DNA of 48,582 nt from Aureispira sp. CCB-QB1 (GTDB lineage Bacteria; Bacteroidota; Bacteroidia; Chitinophagales; Saprospiraceae): positions 1 to 48,582 of the forward strand of contig CAMBRK010000028.1 in the NCBI GenBank assembly GCA_945870185.1. The letters run 5' to 3'. Position 1 is the stretch's first letter. Each line of letters starts with the position of its first letter. The position numbers were made by a program, and so were the translations under genes. This document shows, one piece after another, positions 3,431 through 26,492 of this stretch. The notes below the pieces were generated by a model, which did no database searches, was not told the origin of the DNA, and saw only the letters and a program-made list of their open reading frames with translations.

Positions 3431-4696
3431 TCAGATCATGGGCTTAATGTCAAAACCGATCGATGCCAAGTCTTTCCAAAATTCGGGATATGATTTTGAA
3501 ACTACATCGGAGTCATGGACTAATATAGGATTTAGCATTGCCAAAGGAGCAAATGCCATAGCCATCCGGTGATCATGGTAAGTATCAAAAGCTGTGTATG
3601 CTTCAGTATCAAAATTTGCTTTACCTTCTTGCATATAGTACTCAACGGAAGTTTTTTTACTGAATTTTTGTGGCATTTGATTCAAAAATACCTGTATTTT
3701 TGCTAACTCTGTTTGCAAAGCCGCGATTCGATCTGTTTCTTTGATCTTGAGCGTTTGTAATCCAGAGTACAGCATATGGGTTCCTGTTCCTGCGCACAAC
3801 ACAGCAATACTTTGAGCAATATCAGGTACTTTTAAAAAATCATATTCATAAAACTCCAAAGTCCTGGTGTTTTCCTGCTTTTTTAGCGTAACTTGATAAT
3901 GTCCCAATATGGTGGCTACTCCAAATGTCTTTCCAATGGCTACTATTGCTGCATCACCTTGAAGACTCTCAGCATGTAATCCTTCTAATACCAAGTCTGT
4001 TGTATCACTCAATGCAGCGATGCTATAAAAATAGGAAGCAGCTGACCAGTCTGATTCTACATGATAGTCTTTGGCTACATAATCTTGATGTGGAACCATT
4101 AAGGTGTTTTCTTCCCAACTGACTGATACCCCAAAGTGAGCCATGATATGTATGGTCATTTCTATATAGGGTCTAGATACGATATTGCCCGTAAGTCTTA
4201 TCTTCAAGCCATCTTTCAGTACTGGAGCTACCAATAACAATGCAGTAATATATTGAGAACTGATATCTGCTGGCAATTCTATTTCACTCTTCCAAAATTT
4301 TGGTGAAGCTTTTATATGCAGCGGAGGAAATCCTTCTTGTCCTAAATAGGTAATATCTGCACCTAAATGAAGGAGTGCTTCTACTAGTGCTTTGATAGGC
4401 CTTTGTTTCATCCTTTCTGAACCTGTCAGTATATGTTCACCCTGTTGCAAAGCCAGATAAGCAGTCAAAAATCTAAAAGTAGTACCCGCATGATGCGCAT
4501 CTAGTGTGGAATCAGAGCTGCTGAGTAAAGCCGACAGTGTTTTGGTGTCATCGCTGTCCGATAAATTTTCTATATTAAACTTATCTTTGGTCAATGCTTG
4601 AATGAGCAATACTCGATTGGAGATACTTTTGGAACCACTTAATTTTATAGTTCCTTTGATATTTTTAGTTTTTGCCGTTACTTTTATAGTGCTCAT
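3431..4696 (-). CDS. aroA: 3-phosphoshikimate 1-carboxyvinyltransferase (EPSP synthase)
   Basis: Sixth shikimate-pathway enzyme, cytosolic: joins phosphoenolpyruvate to shikimate 3-phosphate. The N-terminal substrate loop KLSGSKSISNR, HAGTTFRFLTAYLAL, SDWSAASYFY, KIKETDRIAAL and the C-terminal HDHRMAMAFAPLAM are all present, covering both inside-out alpha/beta domains. At 421 residues it is near the usual length. The N-terminal half looks somewhat divergent from classical class I enzymes but keeps the Lys, Ser, Arg, Asp and Glu positions expected at the active site. The start is an ATG at 4696. The OsmC/PhoH pair lies 44 bases upstream on the same strand, so a polycistronic message is possible. 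aroB is about 3.4 kb away on the other strand. Confidence 0.95.
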   Translation of the reverse strand: MSTIKVTAKTKNIKGTIKLSGSKSISNRVLLIQALTKDKFNIENLSDSDDTKTLSALLSSSDSTLDAHHAGTTFRFLTAYLALQQGEHILTGSERMKQRPIKALVEALLHLGADITYLGQEGFPPLHIKASPKFWKSEIELPADISSQYITALLLVAPVLKDGLKIRLTGNIVSRPYIEMTIHIMAHFGVSVSWEENTLMVPHQDYVAKDYHVESDWSAASYFYSIAALSDTTDLVLEGLHAESLQGDAAIVAIGKTFGVATILGHYQVTLKKQENTRTLEFYEYDFLKVPDIAQSIAVLCAGTGTHMLYSGLQTLKIKETDRIAALQTELAKIQVFLNQMPQKFSKKTSVEYYMQEGKANFDTEAYTAFDTYHDHRMAMAFAPLAMLNPILVHDSDVVSKSYPEFWKDLASIGFDIKPMI

Positions 4697-22695: not shown

Positions 22696-23416
22696 GATTG
22701 ACTGGAAAGATGTAGGTTTCAAATCCTTAAAGTATCTGACTGAACTTTTTGTGGTAGTTTTTGGCGTGTATATAGGCTTCAAAGCCAATAATTATGCTGA
22801 AGAGCTGAAACAAAAGGACTACGTCAATACAACCATAAAGGAAATGTATCAGGGGCTTGCAGAAGATGCCAAAGATGCTGAGGATAATAAGAAAGGTCAT
22901 TTAGGCGGACAAAAAGCAATCAATTATTTCTTAAAATTATCCAATAACAATCCTGTAAAAAAAGATTCTTTTGAGTTTTACCTTTTGGGAGTATTGACAA
23001 GGAACTTTGTGAGCATTCAGAATACTGCTCCATTCGAAACCATAAAGTCCAAAGGATTTAATTTAATCACCAATGATTCTCTTCGGAAGAATATGATCAA
23101 ACTATATGATTTCCAATATGAAGTACTTGAAAAATTGGAAGAAAAATATCAGGAAATGCAGTTTTATGCCAATGAAGCTAATCATATAAATGAAATACTG
23201 GCTCCTTCTATATTGTATGATGATGAAGGGAAATTTGTTAAAGTGAAGATGCCTTTACAAATCAGTGATCAGGATAGAAATAGATTGATTTTGATATTGA
23301 AAAGGTTTAATTTTAACAGAAAGTTTATTATATCAATGTATGATACTGTAATCAAGGATATACAAAATCTCAGAAAACAATTGGAAGAAGTGTATCCCTT
23401 CGTTCTGGAAAAATGA
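22682..23416 (+). CDS. DUF6090-like membrane-anchored protein
   Basis: 244-residue protein with one N-terminal membrane segment ([20 protein letters not shown], residues 19-38) and a mostly helical soluble part with coiled-coil character ([46 protein letters not shown]). This plan, an anchored hydrophobic stretch followed by an asparagine- and glutamate-rich helical domain, is that of the DUF6090-like proteins common in Bacteroidota, of unknown function. The ATG lies inside the last codons of asnS, and its stop overlaps the start of the AAA ATPase (ATGA), so the three are one transcription unit. Family assignment is by resemblance only. Confidence 0.72.
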
Positions 23417-24150
23417 TCTCAGCTCGTCCATACATCAAATCGGTATTCTTTAAGGAAGAAGAAACTAAAAATAAACGAGGATATCCTTATGACATTCTAT
23501 CTATAAAGCAATGCGAAGATATCCGATTTCATCCTGATGTGACCTTCTTTATAGGCGAAAATGGAAGTGGAAAAAGCACATTGCTTGAAGCGATTGCCAT
23601 AGCATATGGTTTTAATCCTGAAGGTGGTACCAAGTCAGCACAGTTTGAAATTCATAATACACATTCTGATCTACATCGTGAAATCAAACTATCCAAAAGC
23701 TTTAAAATTCCTGGAGATGCTTATTTTTTAAGGGCAGAAAGCTTTTACAATGTAGCTACCAAAGCAGAAGAATTTGGTGTCCTCAAATCCTATGGTGGCA
23801 AATCACTCCACGAACAATCGCACGGCGAAGCATTCCTGGCTACATTGATGCACAAACTTACCGGCAATGGTCTTTATTTACTAGACGAACCCGAGGCCGC
23901 ATTATCTCCTGCTCGACAGTTGACGGCCATCAGCTTGATACATCAATTGGTGCAACAAGACTCACAATTTATTATAGCGACTCACTCGCCGATTATCATG
24001 GCCTACCCCAATGCGCGCATCTATGAGTTCAGTGCAGAAGGCATCAAAGAAGTCAGCTACGAAGAAACTGAACATTACCAAATCACGAAGTCGTTTTTGG
24101 ACAATCCCGAGATCAGTCTGAAACTGTTGATGGAGAATGAAGATGAGTAA
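23413..24150 (+). CDS. AAA family ATPase, SMC/RecF-like (COG3910 type)
   Basis: Soluble ABC-type ATPase of 245 residues with all core motifs and little else: Walker A GENGSGKST (48-56), an ABC signature-like QSHGE (136-140), Walker B LYLLDEPEAALSP (154-166) and the switch His191 in IIATHSP. There is no long coiled coil between them, so it is not a full SMC or RecF, and no TOPRIM domain as in OLD nucleases. Its role is unknown; small ATPases of this class occur both in DNA repair and in defence systems. It is translationally coupled to the DUF6090-like gene. The downstream repeat begins nine bases after its stop. Confidence 0.85.
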   Translation: MISARPYIKSVFFKEEETKNKRGYPYDILSIKQCEDIRFHPDVTFFIGENGSGKSTLLEAIAIAYGFNPEGGTKSAQFEIHNTHSDLHREIKLSKSFKIPGDAYFLRAESFYNVATKAEEFGVLKSYGGKSLHEQSHGEAFLATLMHKLTGNGLYLLDEPEAALSPARQLTAISLIHQLVQQDSQFIIATHSPIIMAYPNARIYEFSAEGIKEVSYEETEHYQITKSFLDNPEISLKLLMENEDE

Positions 24151-24158
24151 TAGAACTT

Positions 24159-24254
24159 CAATTTGGCTATAAGTATTAAAAAATATATATTTATAGCCAA
24201 ATTTAAGCTTTGATTTGGCTATAAATATGCTTTATTGTATCTTTGTAGCCAAAT
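24159..24254 (+). repeat. 96-bp direct repeat, left copy, with palindromic arms
   Basis: This 96-base unit matches 25688-25783 at about 85 positions, counted by eye. It contains ATTTGGCTATAA (24161-24172), its perfect reverse complement TTATAGCCAAAT (24191-24202), a second ATTTGGCTATAA (24213-24224) and a partial arm TGTAGCCAAAT (24244-24254). The left copy carries the promoter of the ATPase gene. The two copies frame exactly one gene. Confidence 0.92.
24214..24245 (+). promoter_or_regulatory. Promoter of the ATPase/nuclease gene, inside the left repeat
   Basis: TTTG at 24214-24217 and TATCTTTG at 24238-24245 match the Bacteroidota -33 and -7 elements with a 20-base spacer. The -33 lies within the third palindromic arm and the start region falls within the fourth arm, so a protein binding these arms would block transcription. 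The right-hand repeat copy has lost the -7 sequence (CAACACTTG instead). Confidence 0.72.
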
Positions 24255-24264
24255 TGAAATCATT

Positions 24265-25674
24265 ATGGATGCTAAGTTAATTGGGCGACTAAGAGAATTG
24301 GACGATATTGATAAGTATTTCTCTGACAAAAAATCACATTTTATTGCTGTATATGGAAGGCGTAGAGTAGGAAAAACTTTTTTGATTCGTAAAGCTTTTT
24401 TGGATCAGTTTACATTTTATACCACTGGAATAGCTAAAGGTTCTCTAAAGGAGCAATTGGCAACATTTAGCATTGCTTTAAAAAAATATTTTGGTGATGA
24501 AACGATATCTATGCCCAAAACTTGGATTGATGCTTTTGCCTTACTTATTGAGAAGTTAGAAGCTGATACATCGAAGAAAAAAGTAATCTTTCTTGATGAA
24601 TTACCTTGGATGGACAATCGAAATTCAAAGTTTATCAATGCTTTAGATTATTTTTGGAATAGTTGGGCAAGTGGCAGGTCGGATATATTGCTCATCGTTT
24701 GTGGATCTTCAGCATCCTGGATGATGAATAAGTTGATCAAAAACAAAGGCGGCTTGTACAACAGAGTCACGGGAAGGATCAAACTAAATCCATTTACGTT
24801 GCGTGAAACTAAGCTGTATCTTGAATCTTTGGGTTGTCAATATGATGAATTTCAATGTATTCAGGCTTACATGTGTTTTGGCGGAATACCATTTTATCTT
24901 TCACATTTTAATAAAGACTGGAGTGCATCTCAAAATATCAACATGTTATGTTTTGCCGAGAATGCTCTTTTAAAAAGGGAATATTACGTCCTATACCCAT
25001 CACTTTTTGACAATCCTGAAAATCATATTGCAATAGTAGAGGCCATCGCAAGTAAAAACAAAGGTATGCTAAGATCAGAAATTGTAAAACAAAGTGGACT
25101 GACCGACGGCGGTGGACTGACCCGAATACTCATAGAGTTAGAAGAAAGTGGATTTATCAGAAAATATTACAATTTTAATAAGATATCTAGAGAAGCAATA
25201 TATCAACTCACGGATTTATTTTCATTGTTTCATTTAAGCTTTTTGAACAAGCCACAGATCAATGATGACAATACCTGGCTCAATATGATCAATACACCCA
25301 AACAGAATACTTGGTCTGGATATGCTTTTGAGATTTTGTGTATTTTACATTCCCATGAAATAAAACAAGAACTAGGGATAGCTGGCATATTATCCCATAT
25401 CTCTACTTGGCAAAATAAAGCTGCTCAAATCGATTTAGTTATAGACCGTAGCGACAATGTGGTTAATGTCATTGAAATCAAATTTTCGAATAGCGAATAC
25501 ACGATTACGAAAGATTACGATCTTAAGCTGCGAAATAAAATGCAAGAATTTAAGGAAAGTACTAAAACTCAAAAAGCCCTATGGTTAGTCATGCTCACTA
25601 CATTTGGATTAAAGAATGGACCTTACAATGGAATTGTTCAGAGATCAATTGCGGCTGATATTTTCTTCAAATAG
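24265..25674 (+). CDS. ATPase with winged helix and DUF234 PD-(D/E)XK domain
   Basis: Archaeal-ATPase/DUF234 family protein of 469 residues from the ATG at 24265 (an upstream in-frame TTG would fall inside the promoter). The STAND/AAA-like N-terminus has Walker A YGRRRVGKT (about 30-38), Walker B KVIFLDELPW (about 106-115) and a GSSASWM sensor (about 147-153). A winged helix spans about 268-300 (MLRSEIVKQSGL, LTRILIELEESGFI). The C-terminal domain keeps a nuclease-like set: E355, D390 (QIDLVID), E404 and K406 (VIEIKFS). Cellular role of this widespread family is not established. Here it is a single gene framed by two 96-bp direct repeats that also hold its promoter. Confidence 0.9.
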   Translation: MDAKLIGRLRELDDIDKYFSDKKSHFIAVYGRRRVGKTFLIRKAFLDQFTFYTTGIAKGSLKEQLATFSIALKKYFGDETISMPKTWIDAFALLIEKLEADTSKKKVIFLDELPWMDNRNSKFINALDYFWNSWASGRSDILLIVCGSSASWMMNKLIKNKGGLYNRVTGRIKLNPFTLRETKLYLESLGCQYDEFQCIQAYMCFGGIPFYLSHFNKDWSASQNINMLCFAENALLKREYYVLYPSLFDNPENHIAIVEAIASKNKGMLRSEIVKQSGLTDGGGLTRILIELEESGFIRKYYNFNKISREAIYQLTDLFSLFHLSFLNKPQINDDNTWLNMINTPKQNTWSGYAFEILCILHSHEIKQELGIAGILSHISTWQNKAAQIDLVIDRSDNVVNVIEIKFSNSEYTITKDYDLKLRNKMQEFKESTKTQKALWLVMLTTFGLKNGPYNGIVQRSIAADIFFK

Positions 25675-25687
25675 CCAAAAAACCACT

Positions 25688-25783
25688 CAATTTGGCTATA
25701 AGTATTAAAATATACATAGTTATAGCCAAATTTAAGCTTTGATTTGGCTATAACTATGCTTTTTGCAACACTTGTAGCCAAAT
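25688..25783 (+). repeat. 96-bp direct repeat, right copy
   Basis: Same length and arm order as 24159-24254: ATTTGGCTATAA at 25690-25701, TTATAGCCAAAT at 25720-25731, ATTTGGCTATAA at 25742-25753, TGTAGCCAAAT at 25773-25783. Differences cluster at the position of the left copy's -7 box and in the first loop; all arms are unchanged, so the palindromes and not the promoter are under constraint. An extra ATAGCCAAA overlaps the ATPase stop codon at 25671-25679. Confidence 0.92.
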
Positions 25784-25865: not shown

Positions 25866-26492
25866 TCAAATCTCGAATACTATTGGGTTATTGACCAGTC
25901 GATATCTCACATCAAGTACACTGGCATTGATATACAAAGTGTCTTTTGTTTGCATTTGACCATAGGCTTCGTGTATATGTCCACATATGTGTACTTTGGG
26001 AAGGATGGTTTTTAAAGTATCTTTGAGTGTTTCACAACCGACATTTAGACCATGAACAGTAAGATCTAGTATCCCGTAGACAGGTCCATGCGTAATCAAG
26101 ATATCTGTGCTATGAGGAATAAGATGCCAATGTTTTTGAATATCTGCACCACGTTGTCTATTAAATGCCCAATCCAAAAACCACGGTGTAATCGGTGATC
26201 CCCAAATATGATAGCCTTCTATATGGATACCACCATCATTGAGATAGATAACATTATCAGGAATGATATTTTTTATTCTTTCAATACTTGCTTTTTCAAA
26301 GAAAAAATCATGGTTGCCTGCTATAAATATTTTATACTTAAAGTCTTGGGCTTCAAACCAATCTAAAAAATATTTGACTTCTTTTTCACTACCACGAGCA
26401 CTTACATCACCCGCATGAATGAGTATATCACCTGCGGGTAGCACAAGCTGGTCATGATATCCATGGGTATCTGATATAGAGACTATTGTCAT
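25866..26492 (-). CDS. Metallophosphoesterase (MPPED/UPF0046-like)
   Basis: Calcineurin-like phosphoesterase of 208 residues, cytosolic. Metal ligands are visible in sequence order: SDTHG (D8, H10), GDILIHAGDVS (D28), AGNHDFFFE (N-H-D near 59-61), DILITHGPVYG (His near 136) and CGHIHEAYG (two His near 172-174). The arrangement with THGPPxG-like and CGHIHEAYG motifs places it with the UPF0046/MPPED branch, whose substrates are cyclic nucleotides or phosphodiesters. It is on the opposite strand to the ATPase unit and ends about 80 bases from the right repeat. It is probably monocistronic. Confidence 0.9.
   Translation of the reverse strand: MTIVSISDTHGYHDQLVLPAGDILIHAGDVSARGSEKEVKYFLDWFEAQDFKYKIFIAGNHDFFFEKASIERIKNIIPDNVIYLNDGGIHIEGYHIWGSPITPWFLDWAFNRQRGADIQKHWHLIPHSTDILITHGPVYGILDLTVHGLNVGCETLKDTLKTILPKVHICGHIHEAYGQMQTKDTLYINASVLDVRYRLVNNPIVFEI

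Follow-up and report, generated by a model that had tools for sequence, protein, structure and literature searches.

The window, a 48.6-kb stretch of DNA (48,582 nucleotides) from Aureispira sp. CCB-QB1, contains at positions 24265–25674 of the plus strand an open frame for a 469-amino-acid protein with an ATPase_2 domain, a winged helix and a DUF234 nuclease fold, which corresponds to the PADLOC family PDC-S27. The gene is framed by a 97-nucleotide direct repeat, whose copies form an upstream end unit at 24158–24254 and a downstream end unit at 25687–25783, both on the plus strand. The two units are spaced 1529 bp apart and are identical at 86 of 97 positions (89%). The initial annotation had placed two 96-base units around the gene with about 85 agreeing positions; its coordinates hold to within 1 bp and the count bears out its estimate of agreement, but the length is 97 nucleotides rather than 96. 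Two neighbouring genes lie outside the framed block. On the left, an AAA/ABC-type ATPase gene (23413–24150, plus strand) ends 7 bp before the unit, and on the right there is a convergent calcineurin-like phosphoesterase gene (25866–26492, minus strand).

Each unit is composed of two pairs of arms. In the upstream unit, arm 1 (ATTTGGCTATAA) occupies 24161–24172 on the plus strand, arm 2 (TTATAGCCAAAT as read on the plus strand) occupies 24191–24202 on the minus strand, arm 3 occupies 24213–24224 on the plus strand, and arm 4 (TGTAGCCAAAT as read on the plus strand) occupies 24244–24254 on the minus strand. Because the orientation of the arms alternates, each unit as a whole is nearly self-complementary (51-nt arms, 78%). 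The four arms (12, 12, 12 and 11 bp) are identical in both units at an offset of 1529 bp, and all 11 mismatches between the units fall within the 50 non-arm positions (P = 0.0004), just as had been proposed when the arms were described as unchanged and the spacers as variable. When the upstream flank of the gene is aligned with the downstream flank, the local score is 145, compared with a 99th percentile of 30 and a maximum of 87 for mispaired flanks, which excludes a chance origin of the repeat. At a strict threshold only two palindromes are found across the 48.6-kb window, each of them in one or other unit. A search of the 4.9-Mb host assembly, as had been suggested, yielded no further full-length copy of the 97-bp unit. 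A domain scan of eight proteins, comprising the element protein and seven neighbouring window proteins, recovered no transposase domain, in agreement with the initial annotation, and the element protein in particular lacks a DDE or other classical transposase domain.

The upstream unit also carries promoter-like sequences. A −33-like TTTG at 24214–24217 is contained in arm 3, and a −7-like box, TATCTTTG, is located between arms 3 and 4 at 24238–24245 on the plus strand, where it runs into arm 4; 20 bp separate the two. We take these sequences to fit the promoter pattern of Bacteroidota (−33 TTTG, −7 TAnnTTTG). In the downstream unit all four arms are retained and the −7 box is lost, with AACACTTG in its place. 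When the 100 bp on either side of the gene are compared over 177 loci, TAnnTTTG is present on the upstream side at 143 and on the downstream side at 30; it lies inside inverted arms at 51 of the 177 loci versus 49 of 715 shuffles. Loci that had been fetched twice and a few partial loci were removed before these counts, as they were before the covariation, terminator and arm-mismatch counts given below. Judged by these motifs, the upstream unit encloses the putative promoter of the gene, and autorepression would be the natural reading of a promoter located within the arms. Because the downstream unit holds the arms without a promoter, it can be argued that the arms have a second role.

The encoded protein scores 61.5 bits for ATPase_2 (cut-off 33.2) and 23.7 bits for DUF234 (cut-off 22.5). 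The PADLOC PDC-S27 profile matches with an E value of 1.5e-189 over its full length (residues 2–468 on profile positions 2–473 of 474), whereas NCBIfam gives no match and a three-sequence profile searched against solved structures gives none at an E value of 0.01. An AlphaFold model built from 43 sequences has a pLDDT of 93.4. Among its Foldseek neighbours 2QEN ranks first, followed mostly by ORC/Cdc6 and NLR ATPases, with TnsC of Tn6677 at rank 42. Residues 251–315 form a winged helix predicted from secondary structure, in which the helix at 283–294 occupies the recognition position in the model. The C-terminal domain, modelled separately (pLDDT 91.3), resembles nuclease folds with weak scores, namely 1Y88 at 8.6e-4, MspJI at 1.0e-3 and NucS/EndoMS at 4e-3 to 6e-3. 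We predict a PD-(D/E)XK-type nuclease domain from this fold resemblance, weak as it is by score. Across the 43 proteins, the Walker residues G31, G36, K37, T38, D111 and E112 are invariant, as are E356, D390, E404 and K406 of the nuclease fold. From these invariant residues and the weak fold matches, both ATPase and nuclease activity are predicted.

Three more homologues of the gene are found in the host genome. One of them (L010) has a frame unit with the same geometry as that in the window (52-bp period) and unrelated arms, and another (L011) has three 53-bp repeats on its upstream side only. The third, at L012:1501–2335, is truncated at its N terminus, and downstream of it lie palindromes whose arms are of a different type again; one of these palindromes is found a second time at a distance of 360 bp. 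To place these loci in context, we assembled a set of 84 loci from the best 80 of at least 582 confirmed relatives in genome contigs and the four host loci. Taking the 99th percentile of scores from mispaired flanks as the threshold, 25 of these 84 close relatives have direct repeats in their flanks that exceed it, and the remaining 59 have none. Scored separately, a palindromic unit exceeds the 99th percentile of the controls upstream of the gene at 55 loci and downstream at 21, a level that 2 of 296 controls surpass. Among further loci drawn from a phylum-wide sample, plasmids and phages, three of the 22 that could be scored reach a score above 30. Taken together, the difference between upstream and downstream units in the close set and the low count among the further loci indicate that the generally shared trait is the upstream unit and that full framing belongs to part of the subfamily. 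The gene itself is sporadic, being present in 15 of 392 genomes of the phylum at an E value of 1e-60 and, at the level of the genus, in one of ten genomes, namely the host.

By sequence comparison, many genes of this subfamily show the same design with gene-specific, private arms. The suggestion that other DUF234 loci would carry these arms is therefore upheld for the design, which many of them share, but not for the arm sequences, and many loci have the upstream unit only. Comparing the two ends of individual copies at 42 loci gives 44 mismatches in 1285 arm positions versus 107 in 640 positions of the inner spacers; the arms are the conserved portion of the units. At two loci (L221 and L059) the frame arms are unlike the promoter arms. 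In the former case, the outer units at L221:754–805 and downstream of the gene are of the GTCAGAAACCAGCGAAATC type, differ from the promoter arms of the same locus, and look like captured foreign ends.

Strong palindromes are infrequent in flanks away from the elements (4 per 126.8 kb, two of which belong to elements). In the flanks of PDC-S01 genes they number 6 per 84.3 kb, and strong palindromes are thus not exclusive to framed PDC-S27 elements. PDC-S01 was considered as a second framed family and rejected, given that flank repeats exceed the control at only 5 of 29 PDC-S01 loci from the same genomes (one of 30 loci was dropped because of a short flank).

If the protein recognises its own units, arm sequences and the predicted recognition helix may be expected to vary together. 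The covariation tests were limited to the 122 of 175 loci that have a clear upstream unit. Where the proteins are less than about 50% identical, similarity between their units does not rise over background, and above 90% it reaches a median of 0.85. When 20-residue segments of the protein were scanned using pairs below 75% identity, the segment 280–299 followed the similarity of the units most closely, with a partial rho of 0.185 (60 permutations). A repeat of the scan with 77 representatives below 65% identity again placed 280–299 first, with a partial rho of 0.173 and 0 of 500 permutations reaching it. No permutation matched the observed rho at any segment in either scan. This segment contains the modelled recognition helix (283–294). 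The effect is small, and the label permutations preserve relatedness only through the correction for overall identity. The covariation bears at most on binding, with catalysis outside its reach. Together with the promoter boxes within the arms, it lends support to the earlier idea of a duplicated operator to which the ATPase itself may bind.

Evidence on mobility comes from genomes in which the family is expanded. Five genomes, those behind loci L080, L083, L087, L093 and L097, hold 16, 24, 8, 29 and 21 such genes, respectively (E ≤ 1e-60), and 80 of these 98 matches in G402–G406 were examined (14/16, 23/24, 1/8, 27/29 and 15/21). Flank repeats score above 30 in 48 of the 80 copies and above 39, the 99th percentile of the control, in 44. 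Among the copies examined, paralogues within one genome are at most about 60% identical, apart from one pair at 77%, and their arms differ. With paralogue identity this low, no burst of fresh copies is seen, with the caveat that metagenome-assembled genomes (MAGs) can lose identical copies; most of these genomes are MAGs, so both the copy number and the existence of identical copies are uncertain.

Across the expanded genomes, the same element (82–99% protein identity) is frequently found at different loci. In five pairs (L186/L212, with 99.2% protein identity, L182/L208, L203/L226, L179/L229 and L184/L247), the DNA held in common extends approximately from outer arm to outer arm, and hardly any similarity, if any, is left in the remaining flank of about 1 kb. 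In the 48 pairs whose flanks were long enough, where unit edges were taken from a repeat search within one pair member, the limit of homology lies within 10 bp of the unit edge on the left in 19 of 27 scorable cases and on the right in 15 of 19. It lies off the edge in the other 8 and 4 cases, several pairs differ at one flank only, and the 48 pairs form clusters of orthologues and are not independent. For L247, five relatives lose left homology at the unit edge, with a right side that is not clean; for L182, it ends three bases short of the unit in one relative, and again the right side is not clean. By these comparisons, relatives relocate as unit-gene-unit blocks bounded by their end units, which agrees with the proposal that such a frame marks a unit moving as a cassette. 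For the copy in the window, we infer mobility from the anatomy that it has in common with these relatives. No empty allele of it was found, and the only congener that closely matches the left neighbour (G004, 84% identity) has a different sequence to the right of the match.

Empty sites are available for the L203 element, which occupies one site in G402, G403 and G404 and is absent from G409, G406 and G405, where both flanking genes are kept. The empty sites of G409 and G406 have no unit at all, and that of G405 carries about 70 bp of other sequence, which by eye resembles an imperfect palindrome of a different type. Empty sites retaining one repeat copy had been anticipated. Three empty sites do exist, but two retain no unit, and similar palindromes remain only in the Wolbachia phage case described below. 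For L186 there is no clean empty site, only a left flank within a messy intergenic region. Assembly error is an unlikely source of the sharp ends and empty alleles, as they are seen repeatedly, in several genomes whose flanks are continuous.

No target-site duplication is evident by eye at L203, and none was found as a general feature of the elements. At one locus (L063:2691–2806 and 4464–4577), the 3′ end of clpB and its terminator are doubled (about 105 bp, imperfect) around the ATPase/DUF234 gene, which looks as though insertion had copied the target or brought the target along. By eye, L203, L247, L182 and L063 gave the impression of insertion behind intrinsic terminators. Under strict criteria, a scan detected terminator hairpins at 1 left and 2 right flanks in 61 framed loci versus 15 of 850 control windows; with counts this close to the control, terminator insertion is not supported as a general rule. 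Another candidate, a palindrome beside L239 that resembled a solo unit, was rejected because it is actually the end of a second element; two different elements are located back to back at L239:1–1001, about 57 bp apart, each ending near its unit edge. In addition, a short interspersed sequence (around CATAAACCGAAGCC) recurs intergenically in these genomes next to some of the elements (left flank of L186, L258, L261 and right flank of L212).

The wider family extends to 127 plasmid records and 7 phage records, in which every relative has less than 60% identity. Arm-type framing is absent from eight distant plasmid relatives (five haloarchaeal, and one each from Desulfosarcina, Cetobacterium and Rhodothermus). 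Three of the eight exceed the maximum of the mispaired control (23), with scores of 24, 27 and 45, and none has strong two-sided palindromes. The Cetobacterium and Rhodothermus genes have palindromes just before the start codon. The five haloarchaeal homologues (L327, L329, L330, L331 and L333) have a common repeated motif (TCATTATCGYAGTAATCATTA) directly before the start codon. An autoregulated ATPase-nuclease may be the ancestral trait, and framing and mobility look derived within the family.

A homologue in Wolbachia phage WO (L114) sits in the gap between a capsid gene and its neighbour. It is unframed, and at L114:3903–3996 two palindromes spaced 56 bp apart enclose TATAAT rather than TAnnTTTG. 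Seven of 14 other WO phage records were examined, and all seven are free of the gene; in six of them the same gap holds one to three similar palindromes, and the gap of the seventh (L123) holds none, the palindromes here, like the remnant in G405, having been assessed by eye. From such gene-free gaps it follows that gene loss leaving units behind, or insertion beside existing units, may occur. The units are not dispersed in these phages: a strict pattern, which detects only one of the two L114 units, matches once in 40 kb and once in 30 kb, each time at the site itself.

We consider it probable that the block at 24158–25783 is one copy in a family of single-gene mobile elements with the layout end unit, gene, end unit, which recognise their own ends and repress their own expression. 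In the mechanism that we propose, the protein would bind its own arms through the winged helix and, once bound, would repress its own promoter. Two like ends would be brought together in an ATP-dependent complex, and the nuclease domain would cut at or beside the units, after which the block would be moved or copied. With private arms, many elements could coexist in one genome, each leaving the others untouched. We infer that binding, repression, end synapsis, cutting and strand transfer are all performed by the encoded protein, and transposition might be carried out by the nuclease itself.

Alternatively, the two palindromic units might be the ends of an element whose movement depends on a different recombinase acting in trans, such as a RAYT/IS200-type or IS transposase encoded by the host; the ATPase-nuclease would then be cargo and would use the upstream unit only as its operator. 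Such an arrangement would account for an element without a classical transposase domain, and an IS5-like transposase is located near one distant homologue. Palindromic ends without a clear target duplication are a feature of single-strand transposons, which the elements recall in this respect. We nevertheless judge this explanation unlikely, because a common trans-acting enzyme predicts common ends and yet paralogues in one genome differ in their arms. It also fits poorly with arms that track the recognition helix of the protein itself and with a downstream copy that retains its arms without the promoter boxes.

If the gene were an anti-phage gene of the PDC-S27 type with an autoregulatory operator, framing and relocation would be by-products of the horizontal exchange of defence genes. 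An operator, however, requires no second copy behind the gene, and under this explanation homology should not stop at both units, yet it does; nor do the PDC-S01 genes of the same genomes exceed the control at more than the 5 of 29 loci noted above. We therefore regard defence as the sole explanation as rather improbable, even with a PADLOC profile match as strong as the one obtained, with relatives on plasmids and phages, and with operator-like promoter repeats also present in distant haloarchaeal relatives. Roles in defence and as a mobile element are compatible and not exclusive. Homing or a recombination hot spot, whereby the units pre-exist and the gene inserts beside or between them or is lost by direct-repeat recombination, would explain the palindromes in six of the seven gene-free WO phage relatives. 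We give this very little credence, as two of the three empty L203 sites in Bacteroidota are without any unit and strong palindromes are rare in flanks. A single-gene mobile element that acts on its own ends is the reading that we prefer.

Several known systems resemble parts of this element. PADLOC lists PDC-S27, to which the protein belongs by its profile match, as a defence candidate consisting of one gene; the passages on the family that were consulted make no mention of end units, gene mobility or covariation between arms and helix. No published account of PDC-S27 end units or mobility was found in the full texts searched, which leave out most subscription papers. RAYT/REP systems (REPtrons) are similar in that a gene is flanked by short palindromic repeats; in the part of the literature consulted, REPs are hypothesised to be miniature transposons and are present in high copy, and RAYTs are tyrosine transposases (PMC3733652). 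In contrast, the element protein is an ATPase-nuclease, and its palindromes are private and rare elsewhere. The domain scan found in the element protein no tyrosine transposase domain of the kind flanked by GTAG/CGTC REPs.

In Tn7, the PD-(D/E)XK nuclease TnsA and the AAA+ ATPase TnsC act in transposition, and the rank-42 Foldseek match to Tn6677 TnsC is a likeness of this type. The element differs from Tn7 in having no TnsB-type transposase domain and in combining ATPase and nuclease domains in one protein, and 2QEN, ORC/Cdc6 and NLR ATPases are structurally nearer to it than TnsC is. An integron cassette is likewise one gene travelling with a palindromic site. However, no array was seen, each gene here has two full end units, and the encoded protein is the likely binder. 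The PDC-S01 family (DUF4143/AAA_14) also fuses an ATPase to a PD-(D/E)XK domain and is multicopy in the same genomes, but it differs in how few of its loci have flank repeats over the control. A Thermus AAA_14/DUF4143 gene is tabulated with ‘transposase’ among its predicted functions in the accessible part of one report (PMC4406477).

The framed single-gene element points to an undescribed type of jumping gene and provides a proposed function for a large protein family whose role is unsettled. If the protein is a passenger, the finding reduces to a new variant of palindrome-ended elements. The 122 loci with a clear unit are natural pairs of arm and recognition helix, and constitute a data set for a code of DNA recognition. 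A broader proposal, which in our estimation has even chances of being correct, is that the framed PDC-S27 genes of Bacteroidota constitute an undescribed superfamily of autonomous transposable elements, whose single protein, built from a STAND/ORC-like ATPase, a winged helix and a PD-(D/E)XK domain, would act simultaneously as repressor, end binder and strand-cutting recombinase. Private palindromes that co-evolve with the recognition helix would then allow as many as about 29 elements to occupy the same genome, each blind to the others. On this view, some of the genes tallied as PDC-S27 in defence surveys would represent mobile elements, rather than or besides immunity. According to the sections of two surveys that we could consult, PDC-S27 accounts for 3503 genes in Archaea and 4562 in Bacteria in a 2026 survey (PMC12988326) and for 2865 in rumen MAGs in another (PMC13356809). 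Should members of the framed subfamily prove to be mobile DNA that carries its own ends, these tallies would need re-examination, and a transposition enzyme made from an ORC/STAND-like ATPase and a restriction-type nuclease becomes testable.
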